The notes beneath the pieces were generated by a model that made no database searches, had not been told where the DNA came from, and saw only the letters and a list, made by a program, of their open reading frames with translations. This document shows positions 4,984-40,216 of a stretch of 44,064 nucleotides of DNA, one piece after another. The stretch's first letter is position 1. The number at the start of each line of letters is the position of its first letter. Origin of the DNA: an uncultured Clostridia bacterium (lineage in GTDB: Bacteria > Bacillota > Clostridia > Oscillospirales > Oscillospiraceae); contig CAMHEN010000007.1 in NCBI GenBank assembly GCA_946184165.1, positions 1 through 44,064 on the forward strand, in the 5' to 3' direction. Made by a program: the position numbers and the translations under genes.

Positions 4984-5054
4984 GTAGGGGGCGGCGTCCT
5001 CGACGCCCCGCTGTGCATTGACCGACACGGGACGTCCGGGAGGCCGTCCCCTAC
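4984..5054. repeat. GTAGGGG...CCCCTAC inverted-repeat element, copy 1
   Basis: A 71-nt element starting GTAGGGG and ending CCCCTAC. Each half forms a hairpin: GGGGCG/CGCCCC around loop GCGTCCTCGA, and GGGACG/CGTCCC around loop TCCGGGAGGC. It fills the mutL-miaA gap. Related copies are at 6923-6993, 14128-14168 and 29642-29781. Confidence 0.7.
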
Positions 5055-24019: not shown

Positions 24020-24104
24020 ATATTGATGTGCCAGAGTAAAGCTGAGTCTTGATTTAAGATGAAATGCACATCAATATTATACAAGAAATATGTCCCGCTT
24101 GCAA
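24020..24104 (-). promoter_or_regulatory. trxB promoter with a flanking dyad
   Basis: On the minus strand TTGCAA (24099-24104), a 17-nt spacer and TATAAT (24076-24081). A 12-bp inverted repeat ATATTGATGTGC (24020-24031) / GCACATCAATAT (24066-24077) has one arm touching the -10, as an operator might. Confidence 0.55.
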
Positions 24105-24177
24105 CAGAACTTTGCGGCGGCAACATTTGCGCTTCGCCGTAGGGACTTCTATTAGCGCGCTTTTTCCGCGCGCAATC

Positions 24178-24206
24178 TTGCATCGGGTGCGCGTGTGCGG
24201 TATAAT
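24178..24206 (+). promoter_or_regulatory. folT promoter
   Basis: TTGCAT (24178-24183), a 17-nt spacer and TATAAT (24201-24206). The predicted leader is only about 25 nt, too short for a THF riboswitch. Confidence 0.7.
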
Positions 24207-24237
24207 CGGGCATACGAATGAAAAGGGGGCGGAGGCC

Positions 24238-24753
24238 ATGAAGAACCGGACGAAAAAACTGGCTGTGTCGGCGCTGCTCATTACGGCGGACGTGGTGCTG
24301 ACACGGCTGCTTGCTTTGAACACCCCGGTGATGAAGATCGGCCTCGGCTTTGCCGCCGTGGCCCTCTGCGCGATGCTCTACGGGCCCTGGTGGGCCGCGC
24401 TGACGGCGGCGCTGGGGGATCTGCTCGGCTCACTCCTGTTTCCAACCGGGGCGTACTTCCCCGGCTTCACGCTCACGGCGGCGTGCACGGGGCTCCTCTT
24501 CGGCCTCTGCCTCTACCGCCGCCCGGCCCGCTGGACCTGGGCCGCGGCCGCCGCCGGGGCGAACACCCTGCTTGTAAGCTATCTTGCCAACACCGCCATG
24601 ATCTGCTTCATCACGGGAAACAGCTTCCGCGCCATGCTTACGGCGCGGGCGGTGCAGCTTGCGGTGACGCTCCCGGTGCAGCTTCTGGTGCTCACCTGGC
24701 TCAAAAAATCCCCGGCGGTCCAAAAGCTCCTGCACCGCGCGGGGGATTCGTAA
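24238..24753 (+). CDS. folT: folate ECF transporter S component (FolT)
   Basis: The 171-residue hydrophobic product has about six membrane helices. It has the FolT-type signatures: LITADVVLTRLL near the N-terminus, MKIGLGFAAVALCAMLYGP, a GDLLGSLLFPTGAYFPGFTLTAA segment (helix 2-3 region) and LFGLCLY. S components bind the vitamin and join a shared energising module (EcfT plus two EcfA ATPases) that is not in this window, so this is a stand-alone group II S component. AAGGGGGCGGAGG precedes the ATG. Folate is inferred from the motif pattern; a related vitamin is possible. Confidence 0.87.
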   Translation: MKNRTKKLAVSALLITADVVLTRLLALNTPVMKIGLGFAAVALCAMLYGPWWAALTAALGDLLGSLLFPTGAYFPGFTLTAACTGLLFGLCLYRRPARWTWAAAAAGANTLLVSYLANTAMICFITGNSFRAMLTARAVQLAVTLPVQLLVLTWLKKSPAVQKLLHRAGDS

Positions 24754-24767
24754 GCGCCCAATTCAAT

Positions 24768-24882
24768 CCGTTTTTGAGGGAGCTTTGCTTCCTCAAAAAC
24801 ACCCTGATCCGAACAACGTGAGGCCTCACGCCGACCAAACGCGGCATATACGCATTGCCGCGTGCGATAAGCGTGAGTCCTC
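24768..24882 (+). repeat. three-hairpin interspersed element, copy A
   Basis: Three stems: TTTTTGAGG.../...CCTCAAAAA (24771-24799), GTGAG/CTCAC (palindrome GTGAGGCCTCAC) and ACGCGGCA/TGCCGCGT. An inverted, roughly four-fifths identical copy is at 28640-28755. Several differences keep the base pairing. It sits between folT and the GH13 gene. Confidence 0.7.
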
Positions 24883-24910
24883 GATTGCGAAACCGGAGTT
24901 TCGCAATCGA
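24881..24910. repeat. 12-bp hairpin before the GH13 gene
   Basis: TCGATTGCGAAA/TTTCGCAATCGA with loop CCGGAG. The arm TTTCGCAATCGA recurs exactly in the leader of the DAACS gene (28510-28521). Confidence 0.6.
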
Positions 24911-24934
24911 ATTTATACAAAGGAGGCCGCCGCT

Positions 24935-26224
24935 ATGGCCCGCGATACCGACCGCAGTCTGCAAACCCAGCTCATCTACTCCGTCTATGTCCGCAGCCAC
25001 ACGCCCGAGGGGACCTTTGCCGCCATCATCCCGGACCTGGACCGCATCCGCTCCCTCGGGACGGATATCATCTGGTTCATGCCCATCCACCCCATCGGGG
25101 TCGAGGGAAAGAAGGGCAGCCTCGGCTGCCCCTACGCAAACCGCGACTACCGCAGCGTAAATCCCGCCTACGGCACGCTGGATGACTTCCGGCTCCTGGT
25201 GGACGAGATCCACAAAAGAGGCATGAAGGCAATGATCGACGTGGTGTATAACCACACCTCGCCCGACTCCACCCTCTACCGGGAGCACCCGGAGTTTTTC
25301 TACCACGGCCCCGATGGAAAGCCCGGCAACCGCTACGGCGACTGGGCCGACGTCATTGACCTGGACTATACCGTGCCTGCCCTCTGGGACTATCAGATCG
25401 AATCCCTGTGCTTCTGGGCCGGGATCGTGGACGGCTTCCGCTGCGACGTGGCAAGCCTCGTGCCGCTGGCGTTCTGGAAAAAGGCGCGCACGGCGGTGAA
25501 GCAGGTCAACCCCGCCTGCATCTGGCTGGCCGAGACCGTGCACATGAGCTTCGGCTGCAAAGCGCGCCGCCTGGGCTTTGACGCCATGCGCGACACGGAT
25601 GCCTTCGAGGCTTTTGATATGGAATACGACTACGACATCCGCGAGGTCTTTGATGAGGTCCTGCGGGGCAGGGCCCCCCTGTCCCACTGGACGGATATGC
25701 TCAACATGCAGGAGGGGCTCTACCCCGCAAACTACAACAAGATGCGCTGCCTGGAAAACCATGACCAGCCCCGCATCGCCTCTCTCGTCCCGGATATGGA
25801 GGCGCTCGTGAACTGGACGGCCATGCTCTACTTCCTCAAGGGCACGACGCTGATCTACGCCGGACAGGAGTGGGCCGATGCGCACCTGCCGAGTCTCTTC
25901 GAGAAGGAGACCGTCAACCTGGAGACGGGCTATAACCTCATGCCGCTGATGAAAAAGCTCAAAGCCGCGCGCGCGGAGCTCTTTACCGGAGAGGACAGCT
26001 TCTGGGCCCGGGCCGACGACGGGCGCTGTGTCGCCGTGATGGAGCGCTTCGGTAAGGCGCGCCACTGTGTCGGCGTCTTCTCCCTGCGCGGGGAGACCGG
26101 CGCTGTCGCGGTGTCGCTTCCGGACGGGACGTATGAAAACCGCATCGGCGGAAACCGCGCGTGCGTGGAGGGCGGCAAGGTCTTCTGCGACGGGACGCCC
26201 CTGCTGCTGGTCGAAGAGCGATGA
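24935..26224 (+). CDS. GH13 (alpha-amylase family) glycoside hydrolase
   Basis: The 429-residue product is a compact GH13 enzyme with all four conserved regions: DVVYNHT (Asp102, His107), GFRCDVASL (nucleophile Asp171), LAETVH (acid/base Glu200) and ENHDQPR (transition-state Asp277). There is no signal peptide, so it acts in the cytoplasm on alpha-glucans or short malto-oligosaccharides; the precise specificity (hydrolase or transferase) cannot be told. AAGGAGG lies 8 nt before the ATG. Its stop overlaps the gluQ start in ATGA, so the two are translationally coupled although no metabolic link is obvious. Single-domain architecture, no carbohydrate-binding module. Confidence 0.9.
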   Translation: MARDTDRSLQTQLIYSVYVRSHTPEGTFAAIIPDLDRIRSLGTDIIWFMPIHPIGVEGKKGSLGCPYANRDYRSVNPAYGTLDDFRLLVDEIHKRGMKAMIDVVYNHTSPDSTLYREHPEFFYHGPDGKPGNRYGDWADVIDLDYTVPALWDYQIESLCFWAGIVDGFRCDVASLVPLAFWKKARTAVKQVNPACIWLAETVHMSFGCKARRLGFDAMRDTDAFEAFDMEYDYDIREVFDEVLRGRAPLSHWTDMLNMQEGLYPANYNKMRCLENHDQPRIASLVPDMEALVNWTAMLYFLKGTTLIYAGQEWADAHLPSLFEKETVNLETGYNLMPLMKKLKAARAELFTGEDSFWARADDGRCVAVMERFGKARHCVGVFSLRGETGAVAVSLPDGTYENRIGGNRACVEGGKVFCDGTPLLLVEER

Positions 26225-27153
26225 GCGGGCCAGTTGTCGGCCGCTTCGCGCCGAGCCCCTCGGGCTATATGCACCTGGGAAACCTCCTGGCGATGCTGCT
26301 GGCCTGGCTGGACTGCCGCGCCCTCGGCGGGGAGATGGTCTTTCGCATGGAGGACCTGGACCCCGCACGCTCCAAAACGGCCTATCGGGAGGCCATGGCG
26401 GCGGATCTGCGCTGGCTTGGTCTCGACTGGGACCGGGGATGGCCGGAGGACGCAGGCTATGCCCAGTCAAAGCGGACGGCCCTCTATGAGGCGGCCTTTC
26501 AAAGACTCGCGGCGCGGGAGCTTGTTTATCCCTGTTTCTGCCGCCGTAGCGAGCGCCTGGCCGCCGCCTCCGCACCCCATCCCGGGGAGCGGGAGCACGA
26601 CGGGGGCTGCCGCTGCGCGCGCCTGACGAAAGGGGAGCGCGCGGCCTTGGAGGCCTCCGGCAGAAGACCCGCCTGGAAGCTCCGGAGCCCGGACGAGACG
26701 ATCACGGTCCACGACGGGCACTATGGCTCCTTTACGCAGAATCCCGCCCGCGACGTCGGAGACTTTATCATCCGCCGGGCGGACGGGGTCTATGCCTATC
26801 AGCTCGCGGTGAGCGTGGACGACATGCTGATGGGCGTGACACGTGTGGTGCGGGGGCGGGACCTTCTCTCCTCCGCGCCGCGGCAGAAATGGCTCATCGA
26901 GACGCTGGGCGGCACGGCGCCCGCCTATTGCCACTGCCCGCTCCTGACCGGCGGGGAGGGCAAGCTCTCCAAGCGCATCGGCAGTCTCAGTACCGAGACG
27001 CTCCGAAAGGAGTACCGGGGAGAGGAGATCGTGGGCCGCCTCGCCTGGCTCTGCGGCCTTCTGGATCGGGAGGAGCCCGTCTCCGCCCGGGAGCTTGTCC
27101 CGGCCTTCTCCTGGGACAGGATCTGCCGGGGGGACGTCAATATGATTCTATAA
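26221..27153 (+). CDS. gluQ: glutamyl-queuosine tRNA(Asp) synthetase (GluQRS)
   Basis: A truncated GluRS paralogue that attaches glutamate to the queuosine base at position 34 of tRNA-Asp. The 310-residue product has only the catalytic core: RFAPSPSGYMHLGNL (HIGH-type), a cysteine-rich zinc segment (YPCFCRR ... GGCRCARL) and a KLSKR loop in place of KMSKS. It lacks the anticodon-binding domain of the full GltX at 16602-18077. The start overlaps the GH13 stop by four bases. An upstream in-frame start would lie inside the GH13 gene and is less likely. A strong hairpin follows. Confidence 0.93.
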   Translation: MSGPVVGRFAPSPSGYMHLGNLLAMLLAWLDCRALGGEMVFRMEDLDPARSKTAYREAMAADLRWLGLDWDRGWPEDAGYAQSKRTALYEAAFQRLAARELVYPCFCRRSERLAAASAPHPGEREHDGGCRCARLTKGERAALEASGRRPAWKLRSPDETITVHDGHYGSFTQNPARDVGDFIIRRADGVYAYQLAVSVDDMLMGVTRVVRGRDLLSSAPRQKWLIETLGGTAPAYCHCPLLTGGEGKLSKRIGSLSTETLRKEYRGEEIVGRLAWLCGLLDREEPVSARELVPAFSWDRICRGDVNMIL

Positions 27154-27157
27154 AAAT

Positions 27158-27193
27158 CCGGGAGGATTCGCAGATCCCTGCGAATCCTCCCGG
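27158..27193. terminator. bidirectional terminator between gluQ and the DAACS gene
   Basis: A perfect 16-bp stem CCGGGAGGATTCGCAG and its complement with loop ATCC. The minus-strand side ends in ATTTTTATAG, so it suits the leftward transporter gene; the plus side has a weak GGTTTAT tail. Confidence 0.85.
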
Positions 27194-27220
27194 GGTTTAT
27201 ATGCGTATGTTTTGTTTCCG

Positions 27221-28456
27221 TCAGCGCTTCCTGGCCATGGCCTTCTGGAGCCAATCCTTGCCGTCGTTGTAGCGGGAGACGATGTAGGAGGCCACATAGT
27301 CGCCGGCCGCGTTGACCATGGTGGCGGGGGGATCGACGAGATCGCCGATGGCCTGGGCAATGGGGAAGGCGACCGCAAGCTGCTCGGGGAAGAACAGGGA
27401 GCAGAGCACCAGCTCGCCCGTGCCGCCGCCGCCGGGGATGCCGGACATGGCGACCGAGGAGACCGTCGCCACGATGATGGCAAGCAGCGCGTCGGTAGTG
27501 GCGAAGTCCTTGCCGAACATGCCGAAGAGGAAGGCCACCTTGATGATGGCGCTCATGCCGGAGCCGTCCATGTTCATCGTCGCGCCCATGGGCAGGACGA
27601 TGTCGGTCACGTCCTTGGAGATGCCGGTGTCCTCGGAGACCTCCATGTTGGTGGGGATGGTGGCGACGGAGGAGCAGGTGCCGAAGGCCACAGCCGCCGG
27701 ACGGAACAGATGCTGGAACATGACCTTGACGGCGCCCTTGCCGCCGCCGAAGCGGGCGTAGAGCGGGAAGATCAGGAACATGTAGGCAAAGGAGACCACG
27801 TAGTAGAGGATGATGGCACGGGCGTAGTTGGTGACGAAGTCAGCGCCGTGGGCGGCCACCAGGGCGGCGAAGAAGCCGAAGAAGCCGATGGGGGCGTAGT
27901 AGCTGATGAGCTTGATGACCTTCATGAGGACCTGGGTGATCTCATTGAGAAGACCTGCGACCTTCGTCTCAGGTCCGCCGCACATCTGCACGCCGAAGCC
28001 GAAGAAGATGCCCGCGATGATGAGCTGGAGGATGGAACGGCGGCTCCAGAGATCGGGGAAGTCGGGCTTGGTGAAGAAGCCGACGATCATGGCCCCGGCG
28101 GACATGGGCTCGGAAGCGCCCGGCTCAAAGGCGGGCTCGCCGGTGTAGACGGGGATAAAGCGCACCAGCACATACATGATGACGGAGGCGATGATGGTGG
28201 TGCACATGAAGGTGATCACGGTGGTGCCCATCAGCTTGCCTGCGCGCTTCGCGCTTTTCATGTTGGCGATGGAGGAGGAGATGGAGAAAAACACCATCGG
28301 CACGACGACGCAGAACATCATGTTGATGAAGAGCGTCCCGAGAGGCTCCAGAACGCCGGCGTTGGGCCACGCGAAACCGACGATGATGCCGAGCACGATG
28401 CCCAGAATCATGGAGAAGAAGAACCAGTTGTTCTTCAGAAAGCTGTTGGACTTCAT
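27221..28456 (-). CDS. dicarboxylate/amino acid:cation symporter (DAACS/SLC1 family)
   Basis: The 411-residue polytopic protein follows the GltPh fold: HP1 serine motif (GTCSSVATIPTNME), the TM7 sodium motif NMDGSG (295-300; canonical NMDGT), HP2 IPGGGGTGE and TM8 with VDPPATMVNAAGD. In TM8 the arginine that holds acidic substrates in GltPh (R397 of DMGRTMVN) is replaced by Ala378, and the GltPh D390 position is Gly371, while the D394 and N401 positions are kept (Asp375, Asn382). This argues against glutamate/aspartate and for a neutral or other substrate. AAGGAG precedes the ATG. It is divergent from an AraC-type regulator, a likely controller. Confidence 0.9.
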   Translation of the reverse strand: MKSNSFLKNNWFFFSMILGIVLGIIVGFAWPNAGVLEPLGTLFINMMFCVVVPMVFFSISSSIANMKSAKRAGKLMGTTVITFMCTTIIASVIMYVLVRFIPVYTGEPAFEPGASEPMSAGAMIVGFFTKPDFPDLWSRRSILQLIIAGIFFGFGVQMCGGPETKVAGLLNEITQVLMKVIKLISYYAPIGFFGFFAALVAAHGADFVTNYARAIILYYVVSFAYMFLIFPLYARFGGGKGAVKVMFQHLFRPAAVAFGTCSSVATIPTNMEVSEDTGISKDVTDIVLPMGATMNMDGSGMSAIIKVAFLFGMFGKDFATTDALLAIIVATVSSVAMSGIPGGGGTGELVLCSLFFPEQLAVAFPIAQAIGDLVDPPATMVNAAGDYVASYIVSRYNDGKDWLQKAMARKR

Positions 28457-28488
28457 AAGAGGATCTCCTTTCGGGGTTTGAGTTCATT

Positions 28489-28522
28489 TAGTCGATCGTC
28501 AAACCCTAATTTCGCAATCGAC
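28489..28522 (-). repeat. imperfect hairpin in the DAACS gene leader
   Basis: AGTCGAT...AAA / TTTCGCAATCGACT around CCCTAA. It shares the arm TTTCGCAATCGA with the hairpin before the GH13 gene. It lies between the promoter and start of the transporter gene. Confidence 0.45.
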
Positions 28523-28539
28523 TGTTTAAGATCATTGCC

Positions 28540-28568
28540 ATTATATTTTCGAAGATTTGCAAAGTAAA
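28540..28568 (-). promoter_or_regulatory. DAACS transporter promoter
   Basis: On the minus strand TTTACT (28563-28568), a 17-nt spacer and a perfect TATAAT (28540-28545). Confidence 0.6.
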
Positions 28569-28596
28569 TTGCAAAATATGCTTGAAACATTGCAAA
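28557..28596. promoter_or_regulatory. three TTGCAAA repeats between divergent promoters (possible AraC operator)
   Basis: TTGCAAA occurs at 28557-28563, 28569-28575 and 28590-28596. The last two are 21 nt apart, two helical turns, a usual spacing for AraC-family half-sites. They lie over the DAACS -35 region and inside the araC promoter spacer. Confidence 0.45.
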
Positions 28597-28610
28597 ACCT
28601 GCTATATACT
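28582..28610 (+). promoter_or_regulatory. promoter of the AraC-family regulator gene
   Basis: TTGAAA (28582-28587), a 17-nt spacer and TATACT (28605-28610). The leader of about 165 nt contains element copy B. Confidence 0.6.
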
Positions 28611-28639
28611 TCAGTCAACTGTGCGCATGACTTGCAGCT

Positions 28640-28755
28640 GAGGACTTGCGCTTATCGCATGCGGCGGAGCGTGACACGCCGCATTTGATCGGCGCGAGAG
28701 TTCACGATGTTCGTTTCAAGGTGTTTTTGAGGCGGCAAAGCTGCCTCAAAAACGG
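28640..28755 (-). repeat. three-hairpin interspersed element, copy B
   Basis: The reverse complement aligns with copy A along its full length. The stems are kept: TTTTTGAGG/CCTCAAAAA, CGTGA/TCGCG (with one G-U type pair) and ATGCGGCG/CGCCGCAT. It lies in the leader of the AraC gene, opposite in orientation to that gene. Confidence 0.7.
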
Positions 28756-28781
28756 TTGTAACAGGAAAGGGCGGGAGATAT

Positions 28782-29627
28782 ATGGCGGAGCGGACGGGCG
28801 TCAACCGCGCGGGATATCTGCGGGAGAGCTTTCACTATTTTCATCTGAAGGACAGCGCGGGACAGGAGCTGGACTTTCATTTTCACGAATTTGACAAGTT
28901 GGTCATCCTGCTCTCGGGCAGCGTGAGCTATCTTGTGGAGGAGCAGCGTTACAGCCTGGAGCCCTGGTCTGTCCTGCTGGTGCGGCACCACACCATTCAC
29001 AAGGCGCTCATCGACCGGACCCGCCCCTACGAGCGCATCATCCTCTACCTCGACCGGCGGTATTTCGAGCGCGCCTTCCCCGGGGCGGGGCTGATGGACT
29101 GCTTCGACCAGGCGGACCGGCACCGCCGCCATCTGCTCACCGCGGGCGCAAACCAGCTTGAGGAGCTGAAGGCCGCCGTCGCCGCCTATGAAAAAGCGGC
29201 GGGGGACGACCGCCTCGGCGCCCAGACCATGCGGGAGACCATGATCATCCAGCTTCTCATCCACATCAACCGCCTGCGGGAGGCCGTCCCGGGGCACGGG
29301 GAGAACCGGGGCGACCCCAAGCTGCAGCCTGTCCTGTCCTATATCAACGAGCACCTGCGCGAGCCCCTGACAGTGGAGGGGCTTGCGGAGCAGTTTTATA
29401 TGAGCCCCTATCATTTTATGCGGCTTTTCAAGGTGCAGACCGGTACCACGGTGCACGCCTATGTGCGACAGAAGCGACTCATGAACGCCGCCCGCCTCAT
29501 CCGCGAGGGGGTCCCCGCCGCGAAGGCCGCCGCCGAGAGCGGCTATGGGGACTACTCCGCCTTCCACCGGGCCTTCCGCGAGAGCTTCGGCGTGAGCCCG
29601 GGCAGGCTCACCGGAAAAGGCGGATAG
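28782..29627 (+). CDS. AraC-family transcriptional regulator (cupin sensor domain)
   Basis: The 281-residue product has an N-terminal cupin-type sensor domain (about 25-90, LDFHFHEFDKLVILLSGSVSY ... HHTIHKALID) and a C-terminal double helix-turn-helix AraC domain (about 180-278, LTVEGLAEQFYMSPYHFMRLF, TVHAYVRQKRLMNAARLI, YGDYSAFHRAFRESFGVSP). Such proteins usually activate genes when a small ligand binds the cupin. It is divergent from the DAACS transporter, its probable target, and TTGCAAA repeats between the promoters are candidate sites. GGGAG precedes the ATG. The ligand is unknown. Confidence 0.93.
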   Translation: MAERTGVNRAGYLRESFHYFHLKDSAGQELDFHFHEFDKLVILLSGSVSYLVEEQRYSLEPWSVLLVRHHTIHKALIDRTRPYERIILYLDRRYFERAFPGAGLMDCFDQADRHRRHLLTAGANQLEELKAAVAAYEKAAGDDRLGAQTMRETMIIQLLIHINRLREAVPGHGENRGDPKLQPVLSYINEHLREPLTVEGLAEQFYMSPYHFMRLFKVQTGTTVHAYVRQKRLMNAARLIREGVPAAKAAAESGYGDYSAFHRAFRESFGVSPGRLTGKGG

Positions 29628-29641
29628 GCATGTTTTGCCCC

Positions 29642-29781
29642 GTAGGGGTCGGCGTCCTCGACGACCCGGCGGAGAAACGTAACAATATACAAAACGCTCC
29701 GGCAAATCCGTACCATGTACGTTTTCGCCGGAGCGTCAATTTTTTTCAACCGCGCGGGGCGTCCGGGAGGCCGCCCCCTAC
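29642..29781. repeat. GTAGGGG...CCCCTAC element, copy 4, split by a terminator hairpin
   Basis: The left half GTAGGGGTCGGCGTCC..CGACCC and the right half GGGGCGTCCGGGAGGCCGCC..CCCCTAC match the element at 4984-5054, but about 70 nt holding a terminator hairpin lies between them. Stem changes relative to copy 1 preserve pairing. Confidence 0.65.
29694..29746. terminator. terminator hairpin between araC and the aminotransferase gene
   Basis: ACGCTCCGGC (29694-29703) and GCCGGAGCGT (29727-29736) with an inner GTAC dyad, then a T7 tract on the plus strand. The minus strand has TTTTGTATATTG, so it may serve both converging genes. Confidence 0.85.
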
Positions 29782-39948: not shown

Positions 39949-40216
39949 GCGGCGGAGGCGCATATGCGCCTCCGCCGGGAGACTGTCAAAAAACCTTGCG
40001 GCAGTGTACGATCATAGAGCCGCAGGGGAGCTCGAGGGGGCAAGGCCCGCCTCGAATACGATAAACCGCCGTCTGAAAAGACTTGAATTTCAAGGCTTTT
40101 CAGATATCAGCATTTTGCCTCAGGCAAAATGCTCGGCGGCAAAGCGCAGTCAAAAAAGCCCCCAAAAGGACTTTTTTGACAAGCTGGCGGCGGAGGCGCA
40201 TATGCGCCTCCGCCGG
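39949..40216. repeat. structured intergenic element bounded by two identical 30-nt palindromic repeats
   Basis: The same 30-nt sequence (GCGGCGGAGGCGC... with a 26-nt perfect palindrome centred on CATATG) occurs at 39949-39978 and 40187-40216 in direct orientation. The 208 nt between start with TGTCAAAAAA and end with TTTTTTGACA. They contain a chain of hairpins: CGAGGGGGC/GCCCGCCTCG (40033-40054), CTGAAAAG/CTTTTCAG, AGCATTTTGCC/GGCAAAATGCT (40109-40133) and GTCAAAAAAG/CTTTTTTGAC (40149-40180). There is no open frame of note. It looks like a MITE or an embedded non-coding RNA. Confidence 0.65.

Follow-up and report, generated by a model that had tools for sequence, protein, structure and literature searches.

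The 44,064-nucleotide stretch of DNA from an uncultured Clostridia bacterium that we analysed (the window) carries two inverted copies of a short, non-coding, multicopy element with a 145-nt core. This element is probably a non-autonomous, MITE-like mobile repeat of the Oscillospiraceae and related families, with selection acting on its hairpin core. Recognition of small mobile repeats usually relies on their ends; in this element, conservation falls on the interior fold with its fixed loop letters, and more than one type of end is found. The unusual part is an order-wide interior core with exchangeable ends.

The two window copies and their hairpins

The copies in the window and their parts are as follows.

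24765-24911, + strand: copy 1, full model match with hairpins A, B, C and D (149.6 bits, model positions 1-145)
24770-24802, + strand: hairpin A of copy 1, loop TTT
24809-24826, + strand: hairpin B of copy 1, weak in this copy, bounds approximate
24827-24877, + strand: hairpin C of copy 1, with outer and inner helices and CGACCAA / GCGATAA as its internal loop, bounds approximate
24880-24910, + strand: hairpin D of copy 1, bearing the 3' inverted end
28614-28758, - strand: copy 2, full model match with D degenerate (128.3 bits)
28492-28524, strand not assigned: D-like palindrome standing apart (a solo end hairpin), close to where the symporter gene starts

Copy 1 lies between genes for an ECF transporter component (24064-24753) and an alpha-amylase (24935-26224), and copy 2 between genes for an SDF symporter (27221-28456, - strand) and an AraC-type regulator (28782-29627, + strand). 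The initial annotation had aligned 24768-24882 (+) with 28640-28755 (-) at roughly 80% identity, and this inverted pair is real, with 81% identity over 116 aligned positions. Its arms pair 24768-24845 with 28678-28755 (78 nt, 83% complementary) and 24850-24882 with 28640-28672 (33 nt, 82%). A direct reading of the sequence confirms the two double compensatory changes described for stem 3 and, for stem 1, the replacement of G-T by C-G; the changes given for stem 2 were incomplete, since CTCACGC/GCGTGAG becomes CTCGCGC/GCGCAAG, which includes an unlisted double change (A-T to G-C) and an unlisted C-A mismatch. The three stems first proposed also hold, but the element is longer than they are, with the further hairpin D that is degenerate in copy 2. 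Two linkers had been taken as single-stranded. One of them, CGAACA, is instead part of the 5' arm of the small hairpin B, which covaries on its own, and the other, GCGATAAGCG, is single-stranded for GCGATAA but not for its remainder. Compared with dinucleotide shuffles, the folds of the two window copies had z values of -7.24 and -4.85, and 0/200 shuffles were as good. Both copies are without the 5' inverted end and without a target duplication.

Distribution and covariation of the core

A blastn search with copy 1 listed 45 places in its own genome, which is 67% complete, several of them partial or on the opposite strand. We built a covariance model (R1) from 30 own-genome copies. Searched against 44 own-genome loci, it found 42 copies at ≥80 bits, and at E 1e-3 it matched 65 places in this genome; here, as in all our counts of own-genome loci and of places per genome, weak opposite-strand echoes are included. 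At E 1e-4, with a ceiling on the matches counted in each genome, R1 had a match in 55 of the 102 genomes of the genus, and seven of these 55, searched deeper, contained 31-65 places each, again with echoes. At E 1e-6, matches extended to 19 of 394 genomes of the order, in 13 of its 169 genera. A covariance-model search for further copies, which the initial annotation had suggested, found them in the own genome, in the genus and in other families of the order.

We read 21 of the order-wide loci outside the own genus, and 17 carry the loop pattern C-GA / G(C or G)GAT; these 17 come from families f7, f13, f15, f16 and f19. The pattern was not found in the other four (L434, L435, L437 and L447), which include all three loci from the own family's other genera. 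With these four left out of the count, and one genome (G039) dropped after re-search, we accept six families of the order as carrying the core formed by A, B and outer C, namely the own family f1 and the five above. An exact core pattern occurs in at least 116 stretches of named genomes. Among the 80 matches listed, the names are those of uncultured Oscillospiraceae, Ruminococcaceae, Clostridiales, Clostridia or Eubacteriales, many of them from rumen or animal gut sets. The covariance model explains many intergenic gaps in a broad set of uncultured bacteria from gut and rumen. The viral contigs, plasmids and phages searched gave no match. An Rfam search of the window returned tRNA only, with no family above gathering for the element, and a permissive search of 301 bases gave two chance hits only. 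In the openly accessible literature covered, we found no description of the element family.

The fold comprises five helices (A, B, outer C, inner C and D). The initial annotation had proposed selection on an RNA or cruciform structure, and this is supported by the many more copies and by covariation above shuffles in three alignments. The own-genome alignment A2 was made from 30 of the 41 copies that score ≥97 bits. Pairing is kept in 94.5% of its 1345 cells, and double-sided changes are seen in 33 of 45 pairs; 0/500 shuffles reach any of five measures, and sliding of the partners drops pairing to 31-49%. Alignment A4, restricted to helices A, B and outer C in 29 hand-picked sequences from 11 genomes and two families, has 95.5% of 752 cells paired and double changes in 20 of 26 pairs, with 0/500 shuffles on every measure. 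Alignment A5, of 22 hand-picked sequences from six families (helix A is displaced by a single column in rows L425 and L439; rows L394, L396 and L424 are incomplete), has 93.1% of 551 cells paired and double changes in 17 of 26 pairs, and one of the five measures was matched by 1/500 shuffles.

Particular letters are held within this fold. CGA and GCGAT, opposed within hairpin C, are invariant in 29/29 rows of A4, and two rows of A5 have GGGAT instead of GCGAT. Among 118 copies, hairpin A has the loop TTT in 90 and hairpin B has a 3-nt loop in 108. The stem of hairpin B has its letters rewritten with pairing kept in L419, L420, L428 and L440. The GA/GA opposition in hairpin B gives way to ordinary pairs in the same four loci; where present, it is a hint that points to the + strand. 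As a guide to the strand, wobble cells were counted in 105 copies (those of A2 and 75 of 77 others, copies longer than 165 nt being left out). G-T exceeds A-C by 105 to 41 without pair 17-25, which at first seemed to point to the + strand, and the count is 106 to 108 with that pair, which is A-C in 14/30 own and 53/75 other copies; the single pair 16-27 supplies 22 cells of the G-T excess.

The inner hairpin of C varies in length, being reduced to a two-pair stem in some copies of genome G124 and bearing an insert of ~180 nt in L351, L353, L354, L356, L357 and L358; inserts in C that resemble these are also found in L034 and L036. The ~180-nt insert has inverted ends (GTCAGAAGAAGCTC) and occurs at different loci in three genomes. 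Insert and element seem to form a composite that moves as a unit.

Ends, turnover and the search for a partner

Although the initial annotation was right in seeing a structured family, it missed the mobility of the unit. As read from the sequences, turnover at orthologous sites, inverted copies and target duplications indicate that the unit is mobile. Copies that retain their ends have the inverted end TAGYCRATTGCGAAA at both termini, with the consensus TAG(C/T)C(G/A)ATTGCGAAA, inverted. With three substitutions allowed, 34 of the 118 copies have a recognisable 5' end, and a few of these may be chance matches. Exact target duplications of 10-12 bp flank five of these 34 (L009, L104, L110, L112 and L117) and were not seen at that score in the other 29, and 20 random re-pairings of the 34 gave 2/680 exact duplications. 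By a looser duplication score, the numbers were 8/34 copies versus 15 in the 20 re-pairings. A search with the end pattern returned paired ends ~194 nt apart and a 34-nt solo hairpin.

Other surroundings of the core were found in G124, where 10 of the 17 copies examined carry CTGTAGACAAA on the 5' side (at most one mismatch, by our own count); on the 3' side, GTGTCGAC hairpins occur in several copies. The TAGYCRATTGCGAAA pattern was not found in this genome at ≤1 mismatch; by eye, the end seen in L392 is of the first, TAGYCRATTGCGAAA-like type. In L393, a 29-nt terminator-hairpin repeat stands on both sides of the element, and similar flanking repeats measure 29 nt with 4 mismatches in L395 and 17 nt in L399, all longer than the 10-12 bp duplications of other copies. 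In G054, from another family, the core lies in yet other surroundings. Because G124 has a different 5' sequence and terminator-flanked copies, one end type cannot explain all copies. This, together with the small share of copies that keep the 5' end (34/118) and the five of these with a clean duplication, counts against the MITE-like reading, as do the window copies, which show neither feature, and the negative search for an autonomous partner described below.

We compared copies at corresponding sites. In eight cases, two copies from different genomes have both flanking genes in common, and the orientation of the element is kept in six of these pairs and inverted in two (L021/L076 and L136/L099). 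Of 30 loci with an rpmA-obgE gap, three contain the core (L150, L151 and, inverted, L169) and 27 have no element match; in the gaps of L152, L173 and L174 a short D-like hairpin is visible by eye. For the closely related genomes G007 and G034, we compared 14 flank segments, of which 13 matched (L096 did not), and one additional site in the same loci; the matched flanks are 91-100% identical. At the 14 G007 sites checked in G034, the core is present at five (L093, L095, L097, L099 and L102), there is no core at five (L090, L094, L098, L101 and the site of the second of the copies on L100), three (L091, L092 and L103) have short hairpins but not the core, and one site falls at a contig end. L093 and L364, like L095 and L385, share one site with near-identical flanks and hold clearly different element copies, and sites would therefore be refilled or overwritten; refilling or gene conversion is the reading we offer. 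At the site of L091, the A-B-C core is replaced in L374 of G034 by another repeat (CTGTAGACAAAG..CTTTGTCTACA) with a D-like hairpin on either side, which could be read as a module swap.

In its fullest form the element is ~190-200 bp long. It starts with the inverted end TAGYCRATTGCGAAA and a short module on the 5' side, continues with the A-B-C core, and closes with D and the 3' inverted end. We hypothesize that a transposase encoded elsewhere would act in trans on these ends. Copies that fold correctly, whether as RNA or as extruded or single-stranded DNA, would spread or survive better, and the core would be kept for this reason. Deletion between the direct repeats that lie in the 5' end and in D may give rise to the solo end hairpins.

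A partner with a transposase and matching ends was not found in 392 loci, in five PF01609 loci or in seven genomes searched for widely spaced ends. DDE_Tnp_1 (PF01609) was rejected as a partner, as its five matches in eight genomes have ends that match only weakly (4 mismatches). Around open reading frames in the 392 loci, four pairs of inverted ends were flagged, and we read these as arms of separate copies. The survey of association with transposase, integrase, nuclease and helicase genes covered Y1 and PF01609 only.

Alternative readings and known systems

The cross-family conservation of the interior loop letters exceeds what a MITE needs. It would suit a functional RNA kept by the host, trans-acting or protein-binding, that mobile ends have incidentally spread. 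A protein would then be bound by its core, which has the GA/GA-flanked B and the loop CGA / GCGATAA. The invariant CGA and GCGAT of A4, the loop pattern in most of the order-wide loci read, and the joining of this core to different ends in G124 and G054 all argue for this possibility. However, 47 of 102 genomes of the genus are without a match at the threshold used and turnover is high between close relatives, and the element is therefore not essential; furthermore, both the gene neighbour and the orientation vary. We consider a host-kept RNA unlikely. It is also conceivable, though rather unlikely, that the A-B-C core is an independent structured module, found in at least six families, carried in mobile repeats with unrelated ends and read by a putative protein. 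The core would then be a passenger or a guide-like RNA (or DNA) fold, and not the interior of one transposon family. The fixed interior fold, its more than one type of end and its turnover between two genomes with 91-100% identical flanks together make the reader protein and the RNA or DNA form testable.

Gene context was taken from our own hexamer gene caller, trained on this window only. The orientations of the flanking genes of 118 copies from 15 genomes are (-,-) in 54, (+,+) in 36, (-,+) in 20, (+,-) in 4 and incomplete in 4, and the co-directional classes show no clear bias (54 versus 36, p 0.07). Because the orientation to flanking genes varies, cis control of one gene class is unlikely, and a cis-regulatory leader is disfavoured by the occurrence of copies in both orientations. 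In 37 of the 116 copies with a downstream gene, D stops -1 to +8 nt from a facing gene's stop codon, and in 40 of the 116 the element ends 12-34 nt upstream of a same-strand start codon; these distances indicate that the element occupies the free part of short gaps. The ends near stop codons, and some D ends just downstream of terminators, could be expected of a transcription terminator or a repeat that stabilises mRNA ends, but the ends before own-strand start codons, the lack of a T-run after D in the copies displayed, and conserved internal-loop letters that termination does not need make such a role very improbable. Mobilisation of the element, as a REP-like repeat, by the Y1 transposases of a RAYT/REP system is likewise highly doubtful: weak Y1_Tnp matches occur in many element-bearing genomes, but the element was present in the fetched stretch of 1/20 RAYT loci (L344, ~700 nt off) and of 0/30 other Y1 loci, and several RAYT genes of the genus adjoin GTAGGGGC repeats of their own, so that RAYT/Y1 mobilisation was set aside on adjacency.

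In the way it works, the element resembles a MITE (PMC10969869) or a mobile/repeat sequence candidate, MRSC (PMC11109978). The passages on prokaryotic MITEs describe units of <500 bp with no open reading frame, with terminal inverted repeats, an intergenic location and stem-loop folding, and with direct repeats in younger copies (PMC10969869). The element resembles these in size, the lack of a known open reading frame, inverted repeats, direct repeats in some copies, location and stem-loops. The difference is that conservation falls on an interior multi-hairpin core whose loop letters are fixed; this core occurs in six families and is combined with more than one type of end. Among the MRSCs of the GC-IGR pipeline, MRSC-65-2 is an example with many copies per genome and covariation, whose RNA or DNA form is open; in the passages concerned, MRSCs often lie near transposase, integrase, nuclease or helicase genes (PMC11109978). 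Like them, the element is multicopy, covaries and has an inconsistent orientation to genes. MRSC-65-2 is a single long stem whereas the element has five helices, and the element may equal another candidate listed there (PMC11109978).

Pneumococcal BOX elements have A, B and C modules with a variable number of boxB (PMC3049150), and BOX, RUP and SPRITE are, like our element, abundant, modular intergenic repeats with a predicted RNA-like structure; in this comparison, by description only, compensatory changes are absent from the passages on them (PMC3049150). The Bacillus cereus repeats bcr1-bcr18 are 100-400 bp long, with a mean of 39 copies of bcr1 per strain, and share short length and mobile features with the element (PMC6542083). 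However, in the passages of that source bcr mobility is tied to TTTAT motifs, whereas the element has inverted ends and 10-12 bp duplications (PMC6542083).

Other repeats were seen in the window. A second repeat (GTAGGGG..CGGCGTCCTCGACG) forms facing pairs at 4984-5054 and 29642-29781, with four matches where none was expected. It resembles GTAG repeats beside the RAYT genes of relatives and probably belongs to a REP/RAYT system. Furthermore, two identical 30-nt palindromes (GCGGCGGAGGCGCATATGCGCCTCCGCCGG) at 39949-39993 and 40172-40216 lie within a 44-nt inverted repeat that is 91% complementary, and these paired palindromes may be the ends of another small element.
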